From a virus, in the IMG/VR virus record IMGVR_UViG_3300021478_000104, positions 1 to 26,172 of that record: 26,172 nt of DNA; one strand, given 5' to 3'. Positions 5,554 through 26,172 of the stretch are shown piece by piece. A program made the translations under genes and the position numbers. Position 1 is the stretch's first letter. Every line of letters begins with the position of its first letter. A model generated the notes under the pieces. It saw only the letters and a program-made list of their open reading frames with translations. It was not told the DNA's origin and did no database searches.

Positions 5554-5766
5554 TTATTTTTCAAATCTGTCCCAAAAACATTCGCTATTAGATTCCTTTT
5601 GTCCTAAACCTGCCCAACCAGTCTTATCACTAAAATCATAACCTGACGATGATGAAGATGATGATGAATCGTCTGAAGATGATGTTGAAGTTGTTGTGGT
5701 ATCCATAGCTGATATACCAAGACACATAGCTAATAAAGCCGTTAAAGAAAATAGTTTGAAATTCAT
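5554..5766 (-). CDS. Secreted Ser/Thr-rich protein, reversed single gene
   Basis: This 70-residue product is read against the surrounding structural operon. The ATG at 5766 follows AAGGAA; a longer in-frame start 90 bases upstream lacks one. Residues 1-21 (MNFKLFSLTALLAMCLGISAM) form a standard signal peptide. Then comes a low-complexity segment of Thr, Ser and Asp (about residues 22-42) and a compact tail with aromatic residues (GYDFSDKTGWAGLGQ, ECFWDRF). It behaves like a moron: own orientation, own terminator (5483-5510) and a leader shared divergently with the capsid gene. The role is probably in the host envelope or beyond; function unknown. Confidence 0.62.
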   Translation of the reverse strand: MNFKLFSLTALLAMCLGISAMDTTTTSTSSSDDSSSSSSSSGYDFSDKTGWAGLGQKESNSECFWDRFEK

Positions 5767-5809
5767 AAAGCGTTCCTTCTTGCTTTTATGTAGTTTAACA
5801 ATAGTTAAT

Positions 5810-5837
5810 AGTTTAGAATCCTCGATAGTTTTTGCAA
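5810..5837 (-). promoter_or_regulatory. Possible promoter of the reversed secreted-protein gene
   Basis: Reading the minus strand, TTGCAA (5837-5832) is followed after 16 bases by TAAACT (5815-5810). Each box matches the sigma-70 consensus at 4 of 6 positions. It lies about 45 bases upstream of the ATG at 5766. Weak evidence. Confidence 0.28.
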
Positions 5838-5874
5838 ATCTTGTAATAAATTTCAATTCCGTAGTACTCTGCCC

Positions 5875-15921: not shown

Positions 15922-17177
15922 ATGGCTCAAGATGTTTATGAAATATTAGGCGAAGCAAAACCACCTTCAACTGCAGCAAATATCGCCCATACGGTTGGTA
16001 GAGGATTAGCTCGGGGTGGAATAGAAGCCGCTTCAACTTTGGCCGGGATTCCTCGAGGATTGGCTGATGTCGTGGTGCTGGATTGCAATTTCTAGGAACA
16101 CCTCAAGAAACACTACAAAAATCTCAACCTACTTTTCTTCCAACAGGACAGGAAGCAAAACAGTTTATTCAACAACAAGCAGAACCTTATTTACCAGAAA
16201 ACTATCTAAAGCCACAATCAAAAGGCGAAGAAGCCTTTGATGAAATTGTAGCCACAACAACTGCTTTAGCTACGCCATTTTTAGGAAAGGCCCCTAGCTT
16301 ATTAAAATCTGTTGGCGTTGCTAGTGTTGGCCAAGGCGCTAAAGAATTAGCTAAACTCTTTAGTTTTCCTGAAGAGACTGCCAACAATATTAAACTTGGG
16401 GTAATGATTCCGGCCTCTATATTTGGTACAAGAGGTACCATTCGTAAAACTTCCCAACAAAGCTATAAAAAAGCAGAACAAGCCTTAAAAAATGCAACCA
16501 TTTCACCTGATAAATTAAGAGATAATCTCTTGAAGGTTTACGATGAAGTTTCATCAAATGCTATGCCGGCACGAGAAGAAACACTCAAGATTCTGAAACC
16601 AGTAGTGAAAAGTATCTCAGTAGGTAATAAAATACCCGTTAAGAAAGTTTGGGATCTTAAAAAAGATATGAATGCTTGGTTAGGAAACTATAAAACTCCA
16701 AAGCAATCGATTCCTTTTGTGGAAAGAACGAGTGGAATTCTTAATGAAAGTCTCCGTGATTATGGCAAAACTAATCCTGAATTCTTACAAAATTATTCTC
16801 TGGGTGATCAGTTACATGGTGCTTTAAGTAATCAATCTATTTTAAATAGATTTGCCCGTGCCAATCCAAGTTTAGACACGGCAATAAAACATCCATTAAC
16901 AAAGATATTATTGTATGGCGCCCCTAAAATAGCAGGATTAGGATCGCTGGCTAAACCGTCTACATTGCCTGCCGTTGGCGCTGCTCTAGGAGCTCGAGAA
17001 ATATATCGTATGGCTAATGTTATGGCTAAAAGTCCAGAAGCAAGAAAGATCTACACAAAAGCTATCAATGACGCCCTAAAGCAAGATATTAAAGCATTTA
17101 TGACTGATGCTAAAAGATTAGACGCTATTATTGGAAAAGAGCCAGAAGAAGGCGAATACTACGAAATATTAGGCTAA
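15922..17177 (+). pseudogene. Putative third ejection protein, split by a -1 frameshift
   Basis: The ATG at 15922 opens a 57-codon frame ending at TAG 16093-16095. The frame from about 16074 to 17177 continues the protein without its own ribosome site or ATG. Joining them at 16074 (GTC GTG then GGT GCT GGA) gives the natural reading RGLADVV-GAGLQFLGTPQ; one extra G in GTGG would restore it. The rejoined product would be about 418 residues: an amphipathic Gly/Ala-rich N-terminus, helical middle (QSYKKAEQALKNATISPDKL), KVWDLKKDMNAWLGNY, and a hydrophobic stretch (LYGAPKIAGLGSLAKPS). It starts with a VYEILG motif and ends with YYEILG. A single-base sequencing error, a real mutation or recoding are all possible; a split gene of two products is least likely. 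Confidence 0.6.
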
Positions 17178-17260
17178 AATTCAGATGGTTCAGCAATAAA
17201 TGCTATCCATAAAACCCATAGAAATCCTATAAATGCAAAAACCATTAATTTAAATATCAT
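17174..17260 (-). CDS. Single-span membrane peptide, 28 residues
   Basis: On the minus strand the ATG at 17260 follows AGGGGA with about 5 bases of spacing. The product MIFKLMVFAFIGFLWVLWIA continues to a short acidic end (EPSEF). It is one membrane helix. Its stop overlaps the stop of the plus-strand ejection gene by a few bases, and it lies beyond the SPFH gene at the end of the minus operon. It may belong to a membrane or lysis function. The length is too short for homology, so this rests on the ribosome site and the clean hydrophobic pattern. Confidence 0.42.
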   Translation of the reverse strand: MIFKLMVFAFIGFLWVLWIAFIAEPSEF

Positions 17261-17337
17261 GATATCCCCTAAAAGTATTCTCTTATAGAATATCATAAGG
17301 GATTATAAAGTCAACTAATATATTACAAATTTCTAGA

Positions 17338-17390
17338 AATTATTCAGATGGAAACCTGTGAAATTTTGTCACAACCTCATCTAGATAATT
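17338..17390 (-). terminator. Nested hairpin at the end of the SPFH gene
   Basis: Outer arms 17338-17350 and 17378-17390 pair with only a two-base mismatch; an inner TGTGA (17357-17361) pairs with TCACA (17369-17373). A 14-base perfect palindrome, AATTTCTAGAAATT, lies at 17328-17341. The T tail on the minus strand is poor, so it may be a terminator or an mRNA end-stabilising structure. Confidence 0.42.
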
Positions 17391-18177
17391 GAATAAATGG
17401 TATTATTTTTCCTGTCACTTGTGGTAATGACCCATCCCATTTCTCAATTGCTTTAACTTGTGCTTCTATTTCTTGAATTCGAATCAATTCCGGCGTAACT
17501 GAAACTTTTTTTACTTGCATAGAGAATGCTTCAGCTTCAGCACGAGCCCTTGTCTGAACGGCTTCTTCGTGCACTTTTAAGGTCAGGTTCTTAGCAGTCT
17601 TCGCGCTTTGTTCAGCAATTTGTTTATCTTCAACTGCTTTAATAAACTCCGGTGTGAAATCTAAATGAATGAAGTTAAAATCTATAAGATCAAGATAAAG
17701 AGGCGCTAAACGCTCTTTAAGTTCGATAATAACTCTCTCTTTAGCTTCATGACGACTTTGAATAAGATCTTCCGCAGTGAACTTAGCAATAACCGCTTTT
17801 ACGCTTTCTTGGGTGAAAGGATCGATAATAATATCATTAAACTCTACGCCAATCTGCTGATATATTCTCAAAGGATCAATGATCTTATAGTTTATTACCA
17901 TACCAACCGATACTGTTTGTAAATCACGAGACATACCTTTAGTTTCAATCTCTGCAGCATTTATACGGGTATTAATTGCTACGGTAGAATCTATAAAGGG
18001 AAACTTAAAATAGAATCCAGAAACTTTTTCTGTTCTTATAACTTTACCTAATCGTAATTGTATAACGGTGAATCCTGGATCTACAATGAAATAAGACTCA
18101 AAGAATAATACACCAAAGATAATAAATAAAACTATAGCAACAATATAACGATTGGGAATATTAATAGTCTCTTGCAT
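17377..18177 (-). CDS. SPFH/Band 7 (prohibitin-stomatin-like) membrane protein
   Basis: The ATG at 18177 follows GGAG with good spacing; a TTG 36 bases upstream is less likely. The 266-residue protein has a membrane span at residues about 11-30 (YIVAIVLFIIFGVLFFESYF) and the SPFH entry motif DPGFTVIQLRLGKVIRTE. It continues with GFYFKFPFID, the strand DLQTVSVGMVINYKI, the helix FTQESVKAVIAKFTAEDLIQ and a C-terminal Ala/Glu/Arg-rich coiled coil (about 185-225) ending before GKIIPFIQLSR. SPFH proteins form large rings on membranes; bacterial HflK/HflC control the FtsH protease. In a phage this could alter host membrane proteolysis or create a membrane platform. The function here is inferred. 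Confidence 0.85.
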   Translation of the reverse strand: MQETINIPNRYIVAIVLFIIFGVLFFESYFIVDPGFTVIQLRLGKVIRTEKVSGFYFKFPFIDSTVAINTRINAAEIETKGMSRDLQTVSVGMVINYKIIDPLRIYQQIGVEFNDIIIDPFTQESVKAVIAKFTAEDLIQSRHEAKERVIIELKERLAPLYLDLIDFNFIHLDFTPEFIKAVEDKQIAEQSAKTAKNLTLKVHEEAVQTRARAEAEAFSMQVKKVSVTPELIRIQEIEAQVKAIEKWDGSLPQVTGKIIPFIQLSR

Positions 18178-18194
18178 AGTTCTCCAACTAAATT

Positions 18195-18247
18195 CCCCTT
18201 GAGGGAGGCCCAAGGGGTAGAAAAAACTCTTATGGGTTTTGCCATAA
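18195..18247 (-). promoter_or_regulatory. Two hairpins in the SPFH gene leader
   Basis: TTATGG (18230-18235) pairs with CCATAA (18242-18247); on the minus strand it is followed after GAG by TTTTTT (18226-18221), like a second terminator. Then CCCCTTG (18195-18201) pairs with CAAGGGG (18211-18217), ending 18 bases before the SPFH start codon. With the terminator at 18261-18301 they form three hairpins in a row. Confidence 0.5.
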
Positions 18248-18260
18248 AAGGATTAGGTTC

Positions 18261-18301
18261 AAAAAAACCCCATTAAGGAACAGAAACGAAACTCAATGGG
18301 G
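18261..18301 (-). terminator. Minus-strand rho-independent terminator
   Basis: On the minus strand CCCCATT (18301-18295) pairs with AATGGGG (18274-18268) and is followed directly by TTTTTTT (18267-18261). The loop is 20 bases. It follows the small membrane gene 18344-18523 and would reduce transcription into the SPFH gene. Confidence 0.68.
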
Positions 18302-18343
18302 AGTGTAAAAATAGGAAGTTGCGTACCAACTATCTATAAGGAT

Positions 18344-18523
18344 TTACTCTTTTACTTTATCATTCCCCATCATTTTATCAATCCGGTTAATAAGATCTCT
18401 AATTGATCGTTCACTAACCATAGAATGGTTTCTTTCATTAGCAATCTTGAATTCACGCCAGATAAGGTAGGAGAAAATAACTCCTAAAAAAGAAATAAAT
18501 AATGAGAGTCCAAATGCTTCCAT
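18344..18523 (-). CDS. Small single-span membrane protein
   Basis: The ATG at 18523 follows AAGGAG with 8 bases of spacing. A longer in-frame start at 18574 overlaps the previous gene and lacks a ribosome site. The 59-residue product begins MEAFGLSLFISFLGVIFSYL (a membrane span with little before it) and continues as a basic amphipathic helix (REFKIANERNHSMVSERS, RDLINRIDKMM). The short exposed N-terminus and cytoplasmic-type basic tail suggest an N-out anchor. Holin or SPFH-partner roles can be imagined but are unproven. Confidence 0.58.
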   Translation of the reverse strand: MEAFGLSLFISFLGVIFSYLIWREFKIANERNHSMVSERSIRDLINRIDKMMGNDKVKE

Positions 18524-18563
18524 GACATAATCTCCTTGGAGGATATAATCTAGTACGTAAAAC

Positions 18564-18755
18564 TCATCGTTCATAACGATCTTTTCTTGTTTCAGGTGGT
18601 AATGTTATTCGCTTTTTACACCATGTTGATATTCTATGAACTACTTGCTTAGTATTTTTTATAGCGTTATCACGTTCTCTATAGATATACCCACTTAAAC
18701 AAAGCAGTCCTACTATAACCACTATCATAGTGTTACGTTGTGTATAATTATTCAT
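18564..18755 (-). CDS. Small single-span membrane protein
   Basis: This 63-residue protein starts 8 bases inside the end of the preceding minus gene, with AAGGGA upstream. It has a polar N-terminus (MNNYTQRNT), one membrane span (MIVVIVGLLCLSGYIY) and a basic tail (RERDNAIKNTKQ...CKKRITLPPETRKDRYER). The layout resembles small phage membrane proteins of the Rz/spanin or holin kind, but no diagnostic motif is present. It is part of the same operon as the terminase-like gene. Confidence 0.57.
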   Translation of the reverse strand: MNNYTQRNTMIVVIVGLLCLSGYIYRERDNAIKNTKQVVHRISTWCKKRITLPPETRKDRYER

Positions 18756-19251
18756 TATCTTTATCTTCCCTTGTTGGCACTAAATTAGAATGAGGAACCT
18801 CTGGGATAACCGCAATAATAGTCTGCCCTTGGGCAACCTCAGCCTGAGACAATCGTTTAATCTTGGCTAATTTCTCTTCATTTTCTACCCATTCAGGATC
18901 ATACCGTGGCATCATCCTTAAAAGAACAGGGTGAAGTTTATACTTTCCTACACCTAATTCTCTACGTGAAGCTATTTTATCTAATGCCCATTCATATTCT
19001 TGTTTAAACTTATCATTCCGTTCAACAAATGAATAAAATGTTCTATGGCCAATTCTATTCTCAGTTAAGAAATCTTTAATACGCAATGAAGTAGGTTTAT
19101 CGGACCATTCTCGCATAATAATTCTAAGTTCTTCTATAAAAGAATCTGGTATTGGCATTCCGTACGATTCCAAAAGCGTAATTCGTTGCTCAATCTCATC
19201 CGTAGGTTTATTTTTACTCTGCGTAGTATTATTAGTAATTTTCTTTTTCAT
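18748..19251 (-). CDS. Putative terminase small subunit-like DNA-binding protein
   Basis: This 167-residue protein has a Lys-rich N-terminus, then a helix-turn-helix-like region (SLRIKDFLTENRIGHRTFYS, residues about 55-75). It continues with FVERNDKFKQEYEWALDKIA, SRRELGVGKYKLHPVLLRMM and YDPEWVENEEKLAKIKR, and ends in an acidic tail. The order HTH, ALDKIASRRE-type helix, then the M--YDPEW motif is what I recall for small terminase subunits of some podoviruses, which recognise the packaging site. It is on the opposite strand from the portal and far from it, which is unusual. No clear ribosome site is seen; an inverted repeat lies just upstream. Alternative: a regulator. Confidence 0.45.
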   Translation of the reverse strand: MKKKITNNTTQSKNKPTDEIEQRITLLESYGMPIPDSFIEELRIIMREWSDKPTSLRIKDFLTENRIGHRTFYSFVERNDKFKQEYEWALDKIASRRELGVGKYKLHPVLLRMMPRYDPEWVENEEKLAKIKRLSQAEVAQGQTIIAVIPEVPHSNLVPTREDKDNE

Positions 19252-19256
19252 AATTA

Positions 19257-19439
19257 TTAACTGTCGACATTTTGTCGATGGTTGATTTCCGGATATTGCT
19301 CGGTGGTTCTTTCTTTAATATCAGCCATTATTTCATCAATAATCTCTAATTCTTCTTTAAAGCAATCCGTAGTTTGTTCGATAATTTTCTTAATAGAATA
19401 GAGGCGTGCTGAAATAGTTTTTAAAAATAGTTCATCCAT
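19257..19439 (-). CDS. Small helical hypothetical protein
   Basis: A 60-residue protein starts 2 bases after the previous gene's stop, with AAGGAT as ribosome site. It is helical and charged (LYSIKKIIEQTTDCFKEELE, IIDEIMADIKERTTEQYPE) with no membrane span, likely a coiled-coil dimer. Function unknown. Its last codons contain the inverted repeat that precedes the terminase-like gene. Confidence 0.58.
   Translation of the reverse strand: MDELFLKTISARLYSIKKIIEQTTDCFKEELEIIDEIMADIKERTTEQYPEINHRQNVDS
19264..19278. promoter_or_regulatory. Inverted repeat TCGACA-TTT-TGTCGA
   Basis: These are perfect 6-base arms with a 3-base spacer, 13-27 bases upstream of the ATG at 19251, where a ribosome site would be expected and none is seen. 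It could be an operator or an RNA hairpin controlling the terminase-like gene, or a binding site of that protein. Confidence 0.4.
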
Positions 19440-19441
19440 AA

Positions 19442-19651
19442 TTATCCTTCAGCCTTTTTATATGCCCATTCATAATCTCTAATCCTTCTTTTAAGTTCTA
19501 TGAACAATTCTTCTCGTTCATGGAGTTGATCATAGAGAAAATCTACGGGAATGAGAAGGTGGGTGATATCATGATCAGCGTCTATGAGAAAATGAATCTC
19601 ATACTCTTCATAATCGGGTAATGGTAAATTCTGTTCGGGGATTTTCATCAT
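19442..19651 (-). CDS. Small acidic hypothetical protein
   Basis: This 69-residue protein begins MMKIPEQNLPLPDYEEYEIH and has a hydrophobic strand (HFLIDADHDITHLLIPVDFL) followed by a charged helix (LHEREELFIELKRRIRDYEW). Its start lies inside the end of the RusA-like gene (44-base overlap) after AAAGG. A second ATG is the next codon. No family is recognised. Conserved operon packing supports it. Confidence 0.6.
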   Translation of the reverse strand: MMKIPEQNLPLPDYEEYEIHFLIDADHDITHLLIPVDFLYDQLHEREELFIELKRRIRDYEWAYKKAEG

Positions 19652-20069
19652 AGACCTTTTGCCAGGAACCGTGGGATATTAAACAATCATCGCGGAATAT
19701 AATTCCATTACAAACATCTTCGTAGAACTTAATAAGATTTGAGCTATCGGGCCTGATCATATGCGGTTGTCCTATCATGTGGGGCTTTTTCTTTTTAACC
19801 GAAAATGGAATCTCCATAAAGAATCGCCAGTCAATTCTTAAGGGCCCATCAAAAAGCGGTTTATCATTATGTTGCTTAGAAAGTTCTATGCCAACCATAA
19901 GCTTTACCGATTTCTGGGTGTCATACATTCTACGCTCCCCATAATTGGGCGCAACCCTCATCCAATTAATAGGTGGTCCTTCAATAATATAGGTAGCTTC
20001 AGGAGTAAGTAAAAAACTCGAATGAATTTGCCCCATATTTAAATCTCTTTCGTATTTGAAGCCTCTCAT
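19608..20069 (-). CDS. RusA-like Holliday junction resolvase
   Basis: RusA-type enzymes cut four-way DNA junctions made by recombination or replication. The ATG at 20069 overlaps the upstream stop as ATGA; an upstream ATG at 20126 would overlap the initiator gene by 61 bases. In the 153-residue product the family features are IIEGPPINWMR (28-38), RMYDTQK (47-53), FFMEIPFS (83-90), the core RPDSSNLIKFYEDV with D108, N111 and D118 (106-119), IIFRDDCLI with D127/D128 (123-131), a Lys at 138 and PRTEFTITRL at the end. These match the RusA acidic active-site pattern. It lies directly after the putative initiator, suiting resolution of replication or recombination intermediates before packaging. 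Confidence 0.85.
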   Translation of the reverse strand: MRGFKYERDLNMGQIHSSFLLTPEATYIIEGPPINWMRVAPNYGERRMYDTQKSVKLMVGIELSKQHNDKPLFDGPLRIDWRFFMEIPFSVKKKKPHMIGQPHMIRPDSSNLIKFYEDVCNGIIFRDDCLISHGSWQKVYDENPRTEFTITRL

Positions 20070-21319
20070 ATTGCCATACCCCAAATCATTTGTTTTAAAG
20101 AATCCTCGTTCGTGTGGGTGGTACATTTTTGCTTAGGAGTATCCTCTTTTTTAAGTGGCTGATGTTTTTGGGGTTCAGTATAGGCTTGAGTCTGTCGTTT
20201 GGCTATAGCTTCTTTACTATGTTCGGTGATCAGTTTTTCCAACTCTTCTTTAGTTCCTGGAAAAAAAGCAGCCATAGACCTCATTACTTCCTCGGATGCT
20301 GGAGGCAATGAGTTTACAAATGCCTTTCTTTGAAATTTGTATTTATCATAAATCGCTTGCTCTTGAGCAGAATATTTTTTGCCTTCCCTTTTTTGGGACT
20401 GAATTTGATAAGTTTGGGAAGTTGGTTTGGGAGTTGTCGACAAACTGGCTACAACTGAAAACTGTTCTGGTTTGCTTTTATAAGCTCTTTCCAACTGTGA
20501 TGCCCATTCGTAGTCTGGTTCTAGACCATGACATGAACAATAATCTTTACAGACAAACCTCAACCATTTAAACACGGACTTAATGTTTTTTGATTGTCGA
20601 ATAGCTTTCAAGGCGTAAATAATTGCTTCTCTCGGGAAGGCCGAGAGTTGAATTTTTTCATGCATAGTAATAGATGCGATAGCCATAATTTCTGGCAAAA
20701 TCGGATTGTTCATGGAAAATCCTTTTCGTTTTCTATGTGCAACATGATCTTTTGATTTTTTTACTACTTTCTTCGTAGATAATCCTCCTCCCTTGGATAT
20801 CCAATGAGAGAGAGATTTAATATAAACAAAGGGACTCTTAACTTGTGTCGCCCTGAATTTAGAAATTATTTCAGAGTGTAATATTGAAGCTGTAATAACT
20901 GAAAGAGAGACATACTTAAAGGCATTAATAAGATGGGATAGTGCTTCTCTAACTGGCATAAATAAGAAATAATCAGAGATTTTATAAACACAGCTAGTCA
21001 TATGTCTATATTCTGAGTTTATATAACCTCGTTCTCTTAAAGAACTAAGAACTTTGTTTGCAGTTTGACGAGTTATTTTAAGTTGTTTAGCTAACCATTC
21101 TTGTTTGAAATAGATTGAATTACAGTTATTACTAAACCAAATGATGATGCTCATAGCTTGAGCTTCAAGTTCTGAAAGGTGATGAAACTCTTTTATGGGG
21201 TCAGACGCTAAAGGAAATAAATATTTTTTTCTATGTTGCTTTTTTATTTTAGAAGTGCTAGTATTACTACTAATTATTGATTCTTTGAGATTTACTAAAC
21301 GAAATAAAGAAGTCACCAT
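20066..21319 (-). CDS. Winged-helix DNA-binding protein, putative replication initiator
   Basis: The start follows a strong AAAGGAG site. The 417-residue protein has a basic N-terminus, a winged-helix region (about residues 45-105) with LSELEAQAMSIIIWFSNN, the recognition helix EWLAKQLKITRQTANKVLSS and the wing LRERGYINSEYRH. A middle helical region contains SMNNPILPEIMAIASITMHE and a Cys/His cluster VCKDYCSCHG (about 257-266), which could bind metal. The C-terminal third is Lys/Gln/Thr-rich and disordered-looking with a QAIYDKYKFQRKAF helix. It is preceded by iteron-like repeats and followed by RusA. A plasmid- or phage-type initiator is the best guess; a transcription regulator is the alternative. 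Confidence 0.6.
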   Translation of the reverse strand: MVTSLFRLVNLKESIISSNTSTSKIKKQHRKKYLFPLASDPIKEFHHLSELEAQAMSIIIWFSNNCNSIYFKQEWLAKQLKITRQTANKVLSSLRERGYINSEYRHMTSCVYKISDYFLFMPVREALSHLINAFKYVSLSVITASILHSEIISKFRATQVKSPFVYIKSLSHWISKGGGLSTKKVVKKSKDHVAHRKRKGFSMNNPILPEIMAIASITMHEKIQLSAFPREAIIYALKAIRQSKNIKSVFKWLRFVCKDYCSCHGLEPDYEWASQLERAYKSKPEQFSVVASLSTTPKPTSQTYQIQSQKREGKKYSAQEQAIYDKYKFQRKAFVNSLPPASEEVMRSMAAFFPGTKEELEKLITEHSKEAIAKRQTQAYTEPQKHQPLKKEDTPKQKCTTHTNEDSLKQMIWGMAI

Positions 21320-21463
21320 ACGTTCTCCTTTGGGTTATTATCCTTTGGGTTGATGAATGATGATTCTTTGAGGGTAACTATTCGGTGTTTACTAAACGAA
21401 ATAAACGTTTTTACTAAAAAAGTATTTATTAAAAACGAATTTAGTTTTACTAAACGGAATGAA
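21291..21463 (-). repeat. Iteron-like direct repeats upstream of the initiator
   Basis: TTTACTAAACGAAATAAA occurs exactly at 21291-21308 (inside the initiator's first codons) and 21388-21405, and with two changes at 21446-21463. The core TTTACTAAA, itself an inverted repeat around C, is also at 21410-21418, and TTTATTAAA is at 21425-21433. Core starts from 21388 are spaced 22, 15 and 21 bases apart. TGATTCTTTGAG is repeated at 21278-21289 and 21361-21372. This looks like an origin with iterons or an initiator autoregulation site. Confidence 0.6.
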
Positions 21464-21492
21464 TAACAAGAACAAAAAGAAAACGAATTCAT
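21313..21492 (-). CDS. Short leader ORF overlapping the initiator start
   Basis: On the minus strand an ATG at 21492, after AAGGA with about 7 bases of spacing, opens a 59-codon frame ending TGA at 21315-21313. It overlaps the initiator ATG (21319-21317) by 7 bases. The product is Ser/Phe/Lys-rich (MNSFSFCSCYSFRLVKLNSF at the start, NPKENVW at the end), and its sequence is largely imposed by the repeats. Such an overlap can couple initiator translation to leader translation, as with leader peptides in some plasmid replicons. It may be only a chance frame. Confidence 0.4.
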   Translation of the reverse strand: MNSFSFCSCYSFRLVKLNSFLINTFLVKTFISFSKHRIVTLKESSFINPKDNNPKENVW

Positions 21493-21707
21493 CCTAAATT
21501 CCTTGTGGTTTTAGCTTGAACTTCGCTGCTTAATGTTTCGTTACTACAATTTCTTCTTAGCTTCAAAATTTCATCTTTCCTGGTAGAAAGTTATCAATAT
21601 AAAAATATTAGACGTCAGGCCCTGTGCTTGGCGTCTTTTGTTTTACTGCGGAAGCAGTTTTGTGATTTCAAAAATCTAGTGTACTCAAAAAGATATATAA
21701 TTCTAGT
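21320..21707. other. 388-base non-conserved-gene control region
   Basis: Between the initiator and the small HTH gene there is no large ORF. The region holds the iteron-like repeats, the short leader ORF, an AT-rich stretch (21500-21600) with no clear promoter that I can find, and two terminator hairpins. The layout of HTH gene, control region and initiator resembles a plasmid replicon. The whole block is a candidate origin. Confidence 0.5.
21610..21662 (+). terminator. Tandem plus-strand terminators (possible end of an antisense RNA)
   Basis: AGACGTCAGG (21610-21619) pairs along its full length with CTTGGCGTCT (21627-21636), including two G-U pairs, and runs into TTTTGTTTT. A second hairpin, ACTGC (21645-21649), GGAA loop, GCAGT (21654-21658), is followed by TTTTGTG. 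The best T tails are on the plus strand, although no plus gene precedes; a minus-strand tail also exists (AATATTTTTA), so it could end the HTH gene's transcript. Confidence 0.6.
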
Positions 21708-21905
21708 TTATAATCCTAGTTCTTTCTCTTTCTGTTGTATCCAAGCCTCTATTTTAAGCTTTGTTAAAAACCTCATAGGCCATTTAGTATCATGCTTCAT
21801 TACCTTAGCTAGCATTTGGTAGTTTACCCCAATCTTTTGTGCTAAGTCAATAATATCCATCGGTTCTTTAAGTAATATCCTATACAATCTATCTTTTAAT
21901 TCCAT
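21708..21905 (-). CDS. Small helix-turn-helix regulator
   Basis: This 65-residue protein begins MELKDRLYRILLKEPMDIID and contains a helix-turn-helix pattern LAQKIGVNYQMLAKVMKHDT, followed by a basic helix MRFLTKLKIEAWIQQKEKEL. Its size and fold type suit a Cro-like or copy-number repressor. It is the first gene of the minus operon, directly downstream of a good promoter whose -35 box lies in a dyad, so autoregulation is likely. The ribosome site is weak (AAAGAAAA). Function inferred. Confidence 0.65.
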   Translation of the reverse strand: MELKDRLYRILLKEPMDIIDLAQKIGVNYQMLAKVMKHDTKWPMRFLTKLKIEAWIQQKEKELGL

Positions 21906-21938
21906 ATTATTTTCTTTTATTTATCATTGTTTTATGCG

Positions 21939-21967
21939 TTGACATGTAGTAGTATATAGTTTAACAT
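21939..21967 (+). promoter_or_regulatory. Rightward sigma-70-type promoter
   Basis: TTGACA (21939-21944), a perfect -35 box, is followed after exactly 17 bases by TAACAT (21962-21967). Transcription would start near 21974, about 36 bases before the ATG at 22010, and drive the ERF operon. Confidence 0.68.
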
Positions 21968-21979
21968 TATTAATGTAAA
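21951..21979 (-). promoter_or_regulatory. Leftward sigma-70-type promoter
   Basis: On the minus strand TTTACA (21979-21974) is followed after 17 bases by TATACT (21956-21951). It would start near 21944 and drive the HTH-initiator operon. It overlaps the rightward promoter almost completely, so the two should exclude each other. Confidence 0.6.
21964..21976. promoter_or_regulatory. Dyad ACATT-ATT-AATGT, putative operator
   Basis: This is a perfect inverted repeat of 5-base arms covering the end of the rightward -10 box and the leftward -35 box. A regulator bound here would affect both promoters. The small HTH protein at 21708 is the obvious candidate. Confidence 0.48.
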
Positions 21980-22009
21980 TAGTGAGTTTATAGAAAACTT
22001 AGGGATATT

Positions 22010-22333
22010 ATGGAAATAAATACTCTACATATCAACGATGTGCCAATAGAAAAATGGCAAGAGGTTTGCACTCAGCTCAAAATAAACCTTGCTGGAGCAA
22101 TGCAAGATCTTCAAGATCAAAAAAATAGACTTAAAGATAATAAAGACCTATCAGAAGATGAAAAATATAGAATACACTTCGATCTATTTATAGAACAAGG
22201 AAAACTAGGAACTTTTTTACAAGAGTTAATTTTTTTCTATAGAAATGAAGAAGAAAAAAAATTCAATCTTTCCTCTAAAAATAATATTAATGTATTAAAT
22301 GAAACTCTTGATGAAATAAAAGAAGAAAAGTAA
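22010..22333 (+). CDS. Hypothetical early protein
   Basis: This 107-residue soluble protein starts after AGGGAT. It is helical and highly charged (IEKWQEVCTQLKINLAGAMQ, DLQDQKNRLKDNKDLSEDEK, EEKKFNLSSKNNINVL) with no membrane span; a coiled coil is likely in the first half. It is the first gene of the rightward operon, before ERF. No family is recognised. It could be an accessory of recombination or a regulator. Confidence 0.66.
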   Translation: MEINTLHINDVPIEKWQEVCTQLKINLAGAMQDLQDQKNRLKDNKDLSEDEKYRIHFDLFIEQGKLGTFLQELIFFYRNEEEKKFNLSSKNNINVLNETLDEIKEEK

Positions 22334-22351
22334 TAATAATATCCACATAAA

Positions 22352-22420
22352 ACCCGGAGATTATATTCTCTTCGTTGCGAATACCGGGTCCCTCTACAGT
22401 TTTTTCATAGCTGTAGAGGG
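22352..22420 (+). promoter_or_regulatory. Two stacked hairpins upstream of ERF, possible attenuator
   Basis: ACCCGG (22352-22357) pairs with CCGGGT (22384-22389). Directly next to it CCCTCTACAG (22390-22399) pairs perfectly with CTGTAGAGGG (22411-22420). Only AGTAATTTTA follows, so termination would be partial. The ERF gene begins 23 bases later with a weak ribosome site. Confidence 0.55.
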
Positions 22421-22443
22421 AGTAATTTTAACGAAAGAACAAG

Positions 22444-23220
22444 ATGGAAAATAAAGTATTAGAAGAAACTTTACGCGATATATCAAAGCGTTTTGCTGAA
22501 TTAGAAACTAAGATTTTTTTATTGCAAAATCATTGGCAAAAAGAGCCTTATCATTCTGATCAAACCGACAAGATATTTGCGGCTATTTCAAAAGCACAAG
22601 GCGAATATACTACTATTGGTGCTAATAGTATAAACCCTCATTTTAAGAATAATTATGCTGATTGGCATACTATTCTTGATGCTATTCTTCCTATTCTTTC
22701 AAAACATGAACTAGGATTAATTCAGGAACCACGATTGGTACCTATAGGCGAAGGACTCACATCTATTCTCTATACTATTGTTACCCATTCATCGGGACAA
22801 TGGATATCATGTCGTTCTCTTATTCAAGCTGAAAAGCCTGGTAATCAAGGATATGGTGGGGCTGTTACCTATAGAAAAAGATATGATGGTTGCGCTATTT
22901 TAGGAATTAGTTTTGATAAGGATCCTACAGACGATGACGGAGAAAGCGAAAGAAAATATATTGAGAAAAAAAAACCAATGACCGAATCAGATCTACATAA
23001 ACCTAAATATATTACATATCCATCTCATCCCGTAGATTTAATTAGCCAAGAACAATTACAAGAATTGCGCGATGAACTAGAAAATCATATTGATATTGCT
23101 CAGATGGTATTAGATAAACTTAATATCCAAAAGCTTGCTGATGTACCTAAAGTACAATTTTCAAGTTTAATGAGACGCATTAGAGAAATAAAACAAAAAG
23201 AAGAACAAGCAAAATCATGA
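22444..23220 (+). CDS. erf: ERF-family single-strand annealing protein
   Basis: ERF proteins anneal complementary single strands and promote phage recombination and genome circularisation (P22 Erf is the type). The 258-residue protein shows the family pattern: AAISKAQGEY (46-55), NPHFKNNYADWHTILDAILP (64-83), ILSKHELGLIQEP (84-96), the strand TSILYTIVTHSSGQWISC, and GYGGAVTYRKRYDGCAILGI (137-155) followed by an acidic patch DPTDDDGE. The C-terminal part is a helical, charged extension. It pairs functionally with the RusA-like resolvase of the opposite operon. The start at 22444 has only a weak ribosome site (GAAAGAAC), so a hairpin-controlled leader may matter. Confidence 0.87.
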   Translation: MENKVLEETLRDISKRFAELETKIFLLQNHWQKEPYHSDQTDKIFAAISKAQGEYTTIGANSINPHFKNNYADWHTILDAILPILSKHELGLIQEPRLVPIGEGLTSILYTIVTHSSGQWISCRSLIQAEKPGNQGYGGAVTYRKRYDGCAILGISFDKDPTDDDGESERKYIEKKKPMTESDLHKPKYITYPSHPVDLISQEQLQELRDELENHIDIAQMVLDKLNIQKLADVPKVQFSSLMRRIREIKQKEEQAKS

Positions 23221-23495
23221 TTACAGAATTATTCTTACTCGGTCTCGTTTCAGTCATAACCGCTCATGAAATTAAAAAGGATCTAGCAATGGAGCACAAA
23301 GCTTATATCCGCCACGATAAACCCCATAAATATGATCAGCTTCCTTTTTGTTCGGAAGTGGTAGTCAAAAAAAATCCCTGCACCTATGAATTATACTTAC
23401 AAATCAGCAAAGATTCAGAACATCCACAATGGGAAAAGATTGGAACAATTTTCAAGGATACGGTTACAAACACCCTTGAAAAATCCCAGAACTGA
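23217..23495 (+). CDS. Small membrane-anchored hypothetical protein
   Basis: This 92-residue protein is coupled to ERF by ATGA. The N-terminus MITELFLLGLVSVITAHEIK is a short hydrophobic anchor or signal. The rest is polar with two Cys (FCSEVVVKKNPCTYELYLQI) and strand pattern, then a helix near the end. Its stop codon lies in the hairpin that ends the converging fibre operon. Function unknown. Confidence 0.6.
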   Translation: MITELFLLGLVSVITAHEIKKDLAMEHKAYIRHDKPHKYDQLPFCSEVVVKKNPCTYELYLQISKDSEHPQWEKIGTIFKDTVTNTLEKSQN

Positions 23496-23515
23496 CGTTG
23501 TGAATCAGCCCTGGG
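23479..23515 (-). terminator. Terminator for the fibre operon
   Basis: CCCAG (23485-23489) pairs with CTGGG (23511-23515) and CTGA (23492-23495) with TCAG (23505-23508), separated by a two-base internal loop. On the minus strand it is followed by ATTTTT (23484-23479). It lies in the end of the converging ERF operon. Confidence 0.6.
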
Positions 23516-23547
23516 AAAAAGGTAGAGTAGTAATGAAGGACGAATAT

Positions 23548-24009
23548 CTATTTAGATTTCCCACCAATACCATAAAAAAATATAGTTATTGCTGTTAATC
23601 CAACGCCACAAGCACCCGAAATAAAGTTACTTATATAAGGATGTTTTTCAGCAAATTTTCTATTTTGTTTAAATGTATTGACTGCATCTTCTTGGATTTT
23701 TTCCGAATTAGTCGCATTAAAAAACTGTGCGAAAGGGAAGTGTGTCTTGCTTGACTCAAAATCTTGTGGGTGTAAAGCAACATATGCTGTATTAGAAGAC
23801 AAATCTCGCTTATAAAAATTTCTTTTAGGATCCAAAGGCAATACATATAATTCTTGAAATCGACCCTGACCACCTTCGTCATTAACCATCTTACCAAAGA
23901 TGATATTCTTGTGATCCAAAAATATATCTCCCACAACTGGTTCTTCAAGTCCCTGCATTGCTTTTAAGGACACAATACCAAAAAGAGAAAGTAATAATAG
24001 CTTTTTCAT
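23548..24009 (-). CDS. Secreted/membrane protein with signal peptide
   Basis: This 153-residue protein follows a strong AAAGGAG site. Residues 1-18 (MKKLLLLSLFGIVSLKAM) form a signal peptide. The mature part has strand and helix mixture (VVGDIFLDHKNIIFGKMVND, RFQELYVLPLDPKRNFYKRD, YVALHPQDFESSKTHFPFAQ), a charged helix and, near the C-terminus, a hydrophobic span (ISNFISGACGVGLTAITIFF), so the product is probably anchored at its C-terminus. It is the last gene of the fibre operon. A host-envelope or superinfection-exclusion role is plausible but not shown. No family is recognised. Confidence 0.66.
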   Translation of the reverse strand: MKKLLLLSLFGIVSLKAMQGLEEPVVGDIFLDHKNIIFGKMVNDEGGQGRFQELYVLPLDPKRNFYKRDLSSNTAYVALHPQDFESSKTHFPFAQFFNATNSEKIQEDAVNTFKQNRKFAEKHPYISNFISGACGVGLTAITIFFYGIGGKSK

Positions 24010-24024
24010 ACAAGCTCCTTTAGT

Positions 24025-24225
24025 TTAAGGTTGTTCAGGTTCCCGATACTGCCTATCAGCTCGGATAATAGTATTAGTTTCGGCATCAAATCTATCACCA
24101 ATATCACATTCATCAAACTGTTTAAGAATATGGTTTGGTCGGGAGTATGAATATGGGGTAATACCATCCCATATGATAACATTTACGACTTCATTATTAG
24201 TATTAATTACTGCATGTCTTTTCAT
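24025..24225 (-). CDS. Small conserved fibre-associated hypothetical protein
   Basis: This 66-residue protein has AAGGAT as ribosome site and lies 8 bases after the fibre gene. It begins MKRHAVINTNNEVVNVIIWD and contains ECDIGDRFDAETNTIIRADR. Small proteins with the N-terminal pattern MKR-AVI-...VVNVI-WDG are often found next to phage tail-fibre genes. A role in fibre assembly or attachment is possible from position; no chaperone motif is seen. Confidence 0.66.
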   Translation of the reverse strand: MKRHAVINTNNEVVNVIIWDGITPYSYSRPNHILKQFDECDIGDRFDAETNTIIRADRQYREPEQP

Positions 24226-24233
24226 GGCTATCC

Positions 24234-26150
24234 TTATAGATATTCAACAACAATGACGGCACCATTACCACCATTACCTCCAGCGCCACTCGTTTTAGTT
24301 CCTATATTAGTTTTACTACCACCACCGCCGCCGCCTCCTCCTCCAGGAACACTACCATTACCACCATTACCACCTTTTACAGAAACAGCACCGCCGCCGC
24401 CACCGCCTCCTCCACCAGCCACAAACATACAACCAGAAGTAGGAGCACTAATACCTACGGTACCGTTAGCATCTGGACCTCCACCACTAGCACCAGGATA
24501 AAGTACGGTACCACTCAAAACCCAATCTTGACTTGAGATTGTAGTACCGCTACCACCAGTATGTGCTGATGCACTTGCAGTTCCAGCTCCTCCGCCACCC
24601 GAACCTGGAATATAAGGTGAAAGTATACCTGAGGGGCCCGTTGAAGTACCTTGAGGTAAAATTCCTAAATTAGTTACCGCACCTGCACCATTACCCGTAT
24701 TCCCGTTTCCTCCTTGTGATCCAGATGAAGGAAATGAAACATAATCAGTACCAAAGGGAGCCCAACCACCGCCGGAAATAAAGTTACCACCTCCAGTTCC
24801 AAATGGTTGACTATGTCCACTTACACTCGTCCCACTAATACCCGGATTATAATTATTAATTCCTACGATAGTAATGCCACCAATGGAACCATTATTTCCA
24901 TTCGTATTTCCAGCAGAAGAAGTTATTGCGGCACCTCCTGATCCACCAGCTCCTATTGTAATAGGTTCTGACGCACCACAAAATGAAGGGAACATTTTAT
25001 AAAGAGTGAAGTTTCCTCCAGCACCACCACCGCCTCCTCCAGAATCAGTAGTAGTAGTTACACTACCACCACCACCGCCAGAACCACCACTCCAGATATA
25101 AAACTCAACCATTTTTGTATTAGGATTTTTTGTCCATGTTCCAGAAGTAAGAAAGGTAGTAACAATAACGCTACCAGTCTGACCACTTTCCATAGTTCCT
25201 AACTTACCCGTATTATCTATAAATACTTGCGCATTTGTAGCACCAACACTTTGGTTATAAACGCCAGCCATAAAAGCAGACGTTTGTGTTGCTTCTACTC
25301 CAATACGAATAGTATTTGACTCAGACACAACACCAGGATTACCTATAAGAATATTATTAGATTCTGAACTGGTATAATTTAATCCAGCCTGAAATCCAAA
25401 TGCGATGTTATTAGTGCCAGAAACTAATGATGATAATGATAAGAGTCCAAAAGCACTATTAGCAGATGTTGTGGTGAGGGAAGATAACGATGACGCACCA
25501 AAAGCACAATTACCACTCCCTGAGGTTAATGAATCTAAAGAAATAGACCCCATTGCTGTATTCGTAGCACCCGTTGTTAATCCACTTAATGCTAGATTCC
25601 CAAATCCAGAATTATCAGTAGCAGATACTACGGTTAACGTAAGATTGCCAGCTAAATTACCAACAAATGTATTACCAGTGCCATAATTATGGAGAAAAGT
25701 AGAGCCACCAACGCCACCAGTTGATCCCAAAAATAGTACACCTTGTGAACCATCAGCAGATGTATTGGGTAGGTGAATAGATTCATTAAGATTAATGGTT
25801 ATCTTATTAACATTATCACCAACAGTGTTGATATTCTCACCACCCTTAACAAGAATAACACCTAAAGCTGGAACAGCTATACCCGTATCTTCATCAAATT
25901 GATCAGCGCCACCACCGCCAGAACCAGGGAATAATTGCTTCCAAGTCGCTATACCTTGACTAAGATCAACGAGAATCCAAAGTTCCCAATCAGTTGTAGG
26001 AGGAGGAGCTGCAATAAGCCAATAAGTGCCTAAATTAAAGTTATTATCATTAATAGTAGGAGGTCGGGTTTCAACAAGCATCTGAGGAGGTGTGGAAGGT
26101 TCCACACCCATATACGCGAGCGGGTTAATACCCGAAAGTTTATAGCTCAT
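24234..26150 (-). CDS. Glycine-rich tail fibre / receptor-binding protein
   Basis: The ATG at 26150 lies 6 bases after AGGAG; an ATG two codons upstream touches that site and is rejected. The 638-residue protein has an N-terminal virion-anchor-like part (MSYKLSGINPLAYMGVEPST, then WELWILVDLSQGIATWKQLF), a beta segment (FDEDTGIAVPALGVILVKGG), five 17-residue head-like repeats (about 180-264), and an NTIRIGVEATQTSAFMAGVY ... KLGTMES segment of the type that normally precedes an S74 chaperone. The chaperone is absent; instead there is a GTWTKNPNTKMVEFYIWSGG start of a glycine-rich adhesin with runs of 6-9 Gly, ending GGNGAVIVVEYL. It is probably the host-range determinant. It is on the minus strand, apart from the other tail genes. 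Confidence 0.78.
   Translation of the reverse strand: MSYKLSGINPLAYMGVEPSTPPQMLVETRPPTINDNNFNLGTYWLIAAPPPTTDWELWILVDLSQGIATWKQLFPGSGGGGADQFDEDTGIAVPALGVILVKGGENINTVGDNVNKITINLNESIHLPNTSADGSQGVLFLGSTGGVGGSTFLHNYGTGNTFVGNLAGNLTLTVVSATDNSGFGNLALSGLTTGATNTAMGSISLDSLTSGSGNCAFGASSLSSLTTTSANSAFGLLSLSSLVSGTNNIAFGFQAGLNYTSSESNNILIGNPGVVSESNTIRIGVEATQTSAFMAGVYNQSVGATNAQVFIDNTGKLGTMESGQTGSVIVTTFLTSGTWTKNPNTKMVEFYIWSGGSGGGGGSVTTTTDSGGGGGGAGGNFTLYKMFPSFCGASEPITIGAGGSGGAAITSSAGNTNGNNGSIGGITIVGINNYNPGISGTSVSGHSQPFGTGGGNFISGGGWAPFGTDYVSFPSSGSQGGNGNTGNGAGAVTNLGILPQGTSTGPSGILSPYIPGSGGGGAGTASASAHTGGSGTTISSQDWVLSGTVLYPGASGGGPDANGTVGISAPTSGCMFVAGGGGGGGGGAVSVKGGNGGNGSVPGGGGGGGGGSKTNIGTKTSGAGGNGGNGAVIVVEYL
25359..25613 (-). 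repeat. Five tandem 51-base (17-residue) coding repeats in the fibre
   Basis: Residues 180-264 of the fibre read as five 17-residue units beginning NSGFGNLALSGLTTGAT, NTAMGSISLDSLTSGSG, NCAFGASSLSSLTTTSA, NSAFGLLSLSSLVSGTN and NIAFGFQAGLNYTSSES. The consensus is N-x-A-F-G then L--L and T-x-G. This is the left-handed trimeric head-like repeat known from phage fibres and trimeric adhesins. Confidence 0.75.
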
Positions 26151-26172
26151 ACACATCTCCTGAAACTTGTTC

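Follow-up and report, generated by a model that had tools for sequence, protein, structure and literature searches.

In phage lambda (NC_001416), a counter-transcribed RNA, OOP, runs from the start of the initiator gene O to an upstream hairpin (PMC3349717, PMC5869508). OOP overlaps the last 52 nt of cII, the 33 nt between cII and O hold no leader ORF, and the four 18-bp iterons of ori-lambda lie inside O. There is no settled role for OOP beside the lambda origin, and the authors of one study presented their result as "a new idea in search of an explanation" (PMC3349717). In phage P22 (NC_002371), the annotated order is c1-oop-orf48-18-12-nin, in which a regulator is followed by an antisense oop terminator and promoter, a short ORF (orf48) overlapping the start of gene 18 by 8 nt, and the O-like initiator encoded by gene 18. 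The P22 origin lies inside gene 18, and gene 12 encodes a DnaB-like protein. Downstream of the initiator is a junction-resolving nuclease (NinG/Rap), and the erf gene is on the left arm. Plasmid R1 (IncFII) has the order copB-copA-tap-repA, with repA translationally coupled to the leader ORF tap (PMC5717011).

Here, we analyzed a linear virus record of 26,172 bases without end repeats (referred to as the window), in which an original prediction had placed a plasmid-style replication control locus at positions 21291 to 21979. The parts listed there are present, namely, a helix-turn-helix (HTH) gene, two hairpins (the second one weak), a 59-amino-acid (aa) leader ORF, three 18-bp repeats, and a winged-helix initiator. 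The locus reaches past these limits, since the first repeat lies within the initiator gene, which occupies positions 20066 to 21319. We think it probable that the locus is the early replication module of a phage with a P22-type portal, built on the lambda/P22 plan with a counter-RNA. Comparison of sequences indicates that this module recurs throughout a large uncultured phage family with freshly evolved sequences. When the locus was sought in related genomes, its parts were found to be conserved in kind and not in sequence.

The initiator and its neighboring genes

Relatives were collected with a portal-protein scan of viral contigs (the best 80 of about 290 matches, with portal identities of 67 to 77%), and larger relatives of 33 to 40 kb were also fetched. 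The main tests used 47 initiator loci, with 840 other gene starts as controls. Coding sequence upstream is commoner at the control starts than at the initiator loci, and the contrast between sense and antisense strands therefore serves as a guard. Initiator starts were taken as the first possible start codon and may be wrong at some loci. The rules were fixed while the first set of loci was in view; loci fetched later are the cleaner test for terminators.

A P22-type portal gene lies at the left end of the window, followed by the major head protein and tail genes, with the early block at the right. No terminase large subunit was identified within the window, which is probably missing about 10 kb relative to the larger relatives (33 to 40 kb). 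Portal and initiator are on the same strand in the relatives compared and on opposite strands in the window, where the early block and tail fiber (17377 to 26156) are inverted relative to the structural block, with the junction at 17177 to 17377 (about 17.2 to 17.4 kb). This inversion may be either real or the product of a chimeric assembly. An SPFH/Band 7 membrane protein is encoded at 17377 to 18213 on the minus strand (PF01145, E = 1.5e-28; phrog_200), and two relatives (G014 and G040) carry similar genes. Two small minus-strand ORFs (5554 to 5856 and 23548 to 24009) have translations that start with or contain signal-peptide-like stretches, which are unusual in phage and perhaps hint at an unusual host. 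Binning placed the contigs of two relatives (L081 and L082) in MAGs from Chlamydiia and Methylococcaceae, an assignment that is unreliable for viral contigs.

The initiator gene (20066 to 21319, minus strand) is preceded by the Shine-Dalgarno sequence AAAGGAG at 21325 to 21331 (minus strand) and encodes a protein of 417 aa with a winged helix at about residues 49 to 126. Its only profile matches are weak ones to "replication initiation protein" PHROGs (E = 1.4e-4). The family comprises 41 ORFs in the fetched contigs by iterated profile, and its members match the PHROG annotations "replication initiation O-like" (E values down to 7e-9), "replication initiation protein," and DnaD-like loader, as well as Pfam HTH_36/DnaD_N. 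The PHROG matches overlap with those of lambda O and P22 gp18, both of which match phrog_678 and phrog_345 of this family in addition to phrog_391 (O) and phrog_270 (gp18). When the profile of the family was compared directly with lambda O and P22 gp18, the match was weak and spanned only the winged helix. A fold unrelated to Rep, DnaA, or DnaD-like proteins had been named as grounds for rejecting the original prediction; instead, the closest viral models to the predicted structure (mean pLDDT of 65, two confident domains) include entries for GpO-N, DnaD, and replication initiators, with low TM-scores, and among solved structures it matches only generic winged-helix folds (MarR-type). Judged by profiles and predicted model, the window protein is O/DnaD-like rather than a proven O homolog. 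For the initiator and Erf of the window itself, scans turned up no close relatives. In the initiator, the winged helix is followed by a hydrophobic helix (about residues 129 to 155) that recurs in many relatives.

The relatives share an order in which erf, on the opposite strand, is followed by a gap, the initiator, and RusA, often with an HTH gene ahead of the gap. In the window, the RusA Holliday-junction resolvase (19608 to 20126, minus strand; PF05866, E = 2.6e-16; phrog_140) is directly downstream of the initiator. The divergent operon starts with an ORF of 107 aa (22010 to 22333, plus strand) that has no significant match in Pfam or PHROGs and continues with an Erf-type single-stranded-DNA-annealing protein (22444 to 23220, plus strand; PF04404, E = 4e-18; phrog_2324, 1.5e-32). 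Between these two genes lies a terminator-like hairpin of 13 bp (22389 to 22421, plus strand), perhaps an attenuator of the divergent operon. By Pfam and PHROGs, recombination genes (ERF and RusA) flank the initiator locus as they would in a lambda/P22 module. As in P22, a junction-resolving nuclease lies downstream of the initiator, erf is on the divergent side, and the portal is of the P22 type, whereas the nuclease is NinG/Rap in P22 and RusA in the window. In contrast to P22 with its gene 12, no DnaB-like counterpart was found with DnaB_C, which detected no helicase gene in 16 relatives.

The small HTH gene (21708 to 21905, minus strand; 65 aa) occupies a Cro/CII-like position, and its product has weak matches to phage repressor/CII profiles (E values of 0.03 to 0.08; PF06892, E = 0.03). 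Like the regulator of the lambda/P22 module, this predicted HTH ORF is upstream of the initiator and co-directional with it, and a same-strand HTH ORF is found 180 to 1,010 nt upstream of the initiator in about 15 relatives. It differs from the P22 arrangement in being a candidate CII only by weak match, with no C2/S24-type repressor found. Overlapping divergent promoter-like sites are present at 21939 to 21979 (minus strand, 21979 to 21951; plus strand, 21939 to 21967; 10/12 matches each). They are suitably positioned for the HTH gene and for the ORF at 22010, and, as originally predicted, they contain a dyad (ACATTA-T-TAATGT, 6-1-6; 21964 to 21976), a possible operator for the HTH protein. 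They are consensus-level sites only, and the number of such sites is at chance level (16 found versus 13.3 ± 4.4 expected from shuffles).

Predicted antisense terminators and promoters at the initiator start

Both hairpins in the gap between the HTH gene and the initiator are oriented against the initiator gene (plus strand). The main one (21610 to 21636) is tO-like, with a stem of 11 bp followed by TTTGTTTT, and a terminator scan detected a second, weaker terminator-like hairpin at 21645 to 21658. The main hairpin lies in a noncoding gap, whereas that of P22 is at the 3' end of the regulator gene. Because the stem includes G-U pairs, it is more stable in plus-strand RNA (−17.6 kcal/mol; z, −5.7) than in minus-strand RNA (−9.1 kcal/mol), and it therefore looks suited to a transcript running antisense to the initiator. 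The best candidate for an antisense promoter is TTCGCT-17-TACAAT (21522 to 21550, plus strand); an RNA started from it would be about 85 nt long (about 21557 to 21641). This promoter is weak, with a score of 7.2 compared to 7.0 ± 1.2 in shuffles, and the best score near the initiator start is 4.3. Since the promoter of the window is no better than shuffled sequence, the RNA of the window rests on the strand-specific terminator and on the family. From these, we infer both that the window phage produces a counter-RNA and what this RNA would pair with.

A first relaxed look at the gaps of the relatives hinted at terminators oriented against the initiator. Under a stricter, fixed rule, an antisense terminator was present in 12/31 loci of the first set versus 2.2% of other gene starts. 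Among the loci fetched later through two further portal searches, when the rule was already fixed, the count was 6/18, an approximate figure because a few of these loci are fragments or close relatives. Pooled, antisense terminators were found upstream of the initiator in 18/47 loci compared to 2.3% of the 840 controls, and sense terminators were found in 2/47. Antisense promoters scoring above the 95th percentile of the controls and with a start no more than 25 nt from that of the initiator occurred in 17/47 loci (controls, 5%). Terminator and promoter were found together in 10/47 loci versus 0.12% of the 840 controls, and at least one of the two, each under its strict rule, was found in 25/47, which leaves about half of the loci with neither. 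In 27 of the 28 cases that could be decided, the antisense strand gave the more stable hairpin; this bias is in part inherent in the search, which permitted G-T pairs on the strand being scanned.

The predicted RNAs of the family are about 60 to 220 nt long and cover the leader of the initiator gene without overlapping the regulator gene. In this they would resemble OOP, which likewise reaches from the initiator start to an upstream hairpin, and would differ from it in that the RNA of the window would cover the leader only. An identical scan of lambda, used as a positive control, gave a pO start at −10 and tO at −84 to −57, in agreement with the published 5' end of OOP (38,675) and start of O (38,686) (PMC5869508). 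No Rfam family reached the gathering score in the window, in lambda, in P22, or in any of five relatives, and the locus gave only chance-level matches.

Could the hairpin instead be simply a bidirectional terminator for the HTH transcript or for stray reverse transcription, with no small RNA and with the repeats serving the HTH protein or the initiator as operators? The lack of a good antisense promoter in the window agrees with such an arrangement, as does the location of the repeats where an operator would be. However, a bidirectional terminator sits poorly with the scarcity of sense terminators compared to antisense ones (2/47 versus 18/47), with a hairpin that is nearly half less stable on the sense strand in the window, and with the strong enrichment of antisense promoters at the initiator start, accompanied by a terminator in 10 loci. 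We therefore regard this explanation as unlikely.

Comparison with IncFII plasmids and phage lifestyle

The original prediction took the IncFII plan as the best parallel and suggested a phage-plasmid lifestyle. Stated in full, the locus would be a captured R1-like replicon in which the HTH protein corresponds to CopB, the antisense RNA to CopA, and the leader ORF to tap, with persistence as a plasmid and a copy number set by the RNA. The parts follow the order of R1 copB-copA-tap-repA (PMC5717011), with a regulator, a predicted antisense RNA, a leader ORF predicted to be coupled to the initiator, and the initiator itself. The candidate RNA of the window is upstream of the leader ORF, like CopA, leader ORFs are enriched in the family, and no integrase is visible. 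The initiator, however, belongs to another family. Neither the window protein nor its 17 relatives have a Pfam match to IncFII RepA, the profiles being of the O/DnaD type instead, and phage and plasmid records (PLSDB for plasmids) gave no match to the initiator. Rfam gave no match, including to its families of plasmid counter-transcribed RNAs; RusA and a divergent erf operon lie beside the locus and, together with the P22-type portal, agree with an early region like that of P22; and no partition genes (ParA or ParB) were found in 16 larger relatives. Capture of an IncFII-type replicon is thus, in our judgment, rather improbable.

Because the initiator family matches O-like and DnaD-like profiles and the P22 region shares the order of parts, including the overlapping ORF, IncFII gives way to P22 as the best parallel. 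Compared by arrangement, the series of regulator, predicted counter-RNA, leader ORF, initiator, and junction resolvase, with erf divergent, is closer to P22 than to IncFII. CopA-type logic may well apply to the lambda/P22-type module favored here, by analogy, with the RNA covering the leader of the initiator rather than the regulator gene.

As for lifestyle, the observation that no integrase is visible stands and extends to the family: no tyrosine integrase was found in the window or in any of 49 relatives, records that may be incomplete. Searches of the 16 larger relatives likewise found no ParA, ParB (ParB_N), S24 repressor, serine recombinase, or telomere resolvase (ResT/TelK), and matches to HTH_3 were below the curated cutoff. 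Since the absence of integrase comes without ParA, ParB, an S24 repressor, or a telomere resolvase, the available genomes leave the phage-plasmid proposal unsupported, and a plasmid prophage lifestyle is not favored. These results fit a phage that is virulent or has an unrecognized form of lysogeny. The replication module of lambda itself can persist as a plasmid (lambda-dv), and therefore a lambda-type module alone does not imply a plasmid lifestyle.

Leader ORFs, repeats, and a model of replication control

The leader ORF (21313 to 21492, minus strand; 59 aa) has the sequence AAGGA 7 nt before its ATG, and its end overlaps the initiator ATG by 7 nt, comparable to the 8-nt overlap of orf48 with gene 18 in P22. 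From this arrangement, its translation is probably coupled to that of the initiator. Leader ORFs with at least 25 codons and a Shine-Dalgarno sequence and ending at the initiator start were present in 11/47 loci versus 1.2 in shuffles, an excess of about tenfold.

A repeat scan identified two exact copies of the iteron-like repeat TTTACTAAACGAAATAAA at 21291 to 21308, inside initiator codons 4 to 10, and at 21388 to 21405, and a third copy with 2 mismatches at 21446 to 21463; a half copy, TTTACTAAA (TTTAGTAAA core), lies at 21410 to 21418 (all on the minus strand). At up to 3 mismatches, the 18-bp repeat has 3 matches in the window compared to 0.11 expected, none of 100 shuffles reached 3, and the cluster is the top scoring of the entire window. 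Lambda also has 18-bp iterons, four to the three of the window, although the positions differ. The repeats of the window straddle the initiator start (−144 to about +28), whereas the same scan placed the iterons of lambda at +347 to +430 and those of P22 at +360 to +415, inside O and gene 18.

Relatives also have direct repeats around the initiator start, with a sequence that differs by genome; examples are CGGAGTAACTA (five copies), AAAAAAGGTTT (five copies at k = 11), ACATGAGGTTC, CCCGAAAGAT, and AAAAGAAGCT. When 11-mers with one mismatch were compared to the rest of each locus's own genome, 10/33 loci had a P value of ≤0.05 (two of these ten being near-duplicates) and 6/33 had a P value of ≤0.01. 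The strength of this signal depends on the setting, since under other settings the number of loci at P ≤ 0.05 ranged from 2 to 8. Exact 9-mers showed no enrichment across the family, so that the signal requires at least one mismatch to be allowed, and the first test (k = 12, all loci combined) gave a Fisher P value of 0.10, with 5/33 loci individually below 0.05. Repeats inside the initiator genes of relatives, as in lambda, were sought and were mostly absent. A scan of viral contigs for the exact 18-bp repeat returned 19 single matches, a chance level, none of them beside an initiator of this family. In the window, GC skew tracks gene strand and located no origin. We infer that the repeats are binding sites for the initiator and that they mark the start of replication.

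It is very improbable that ordinary coding sequence or low complexity accounts for the repeats and that the leader ORF is a chance open frame: the region is AT rich and the repeats lie partly within reading frames, but their spacings (97 and 58) are not multiples of three and so the repeat DNA is read in different frames, no shuffle equaled the cluster, comparable arrays of other sequences occupy the same place in relatives, and leader ORFs exceed shuffles by the margin given above. The central proposal of a replication control locus with regulator, counter-RNA, leader ORF, and iteron-like repeats has gained from the family, in which the predicted RNA, the leader ORF, and the repeats have independent statistical support.

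The lambda/P22-type module with a counter-RNA can be described on the observed gene order, repeats, strand-specific hairpin, and leader ORF, and on the observed enrichment of terminators, promoters, leader ORFs, and repeats in the family. An early promoter would drive the small HTH regulator, followed by the initiator and RusA, and the divergent promoter would drive erf. A short OOP-like RNA, read in the opposite direction between the HTH gene and the initiator, would end at the hairpin at 21610 to 21636. By pairing with the leader of the initiator mRNA, it could lower translation of the leader ORF and, through coupling, that of the initiator, as CopA does, and/or it could act like OOP and destabilize the message upstream. 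Binding of the initiator to the repeats that surround its own start would make this stretch both an origin and a site of self-repression of transcription, and the repeat-bound initiator would then load the host helicase. As a more speculative step, which we offer tentatively and would not ourselves bet on, the family may use an RNA in the position of OOP in the manner of CopA, on an initiator-coupled leader ORF, with origin repeats that wrap the initiator start. Initiator binding, sense and antisense transcription, and origin firing would then compete at one site, and fast turnover of repeats and RNAs at fixed positions could lead to phage-specific incompatibility.

In this distant phage family, position and direction of the predicted counter-transcript element are kept while sequences have turned over, which suggests that the element serves replication control itself, beyond cII. 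A predicted RNA that lies over the initiator leader, and not over the regulator gene, separates the two roles of OOP. It also brings the lambda-type and plasmid-type control plans close to each other, and the family offers many natural variants as a testable set.
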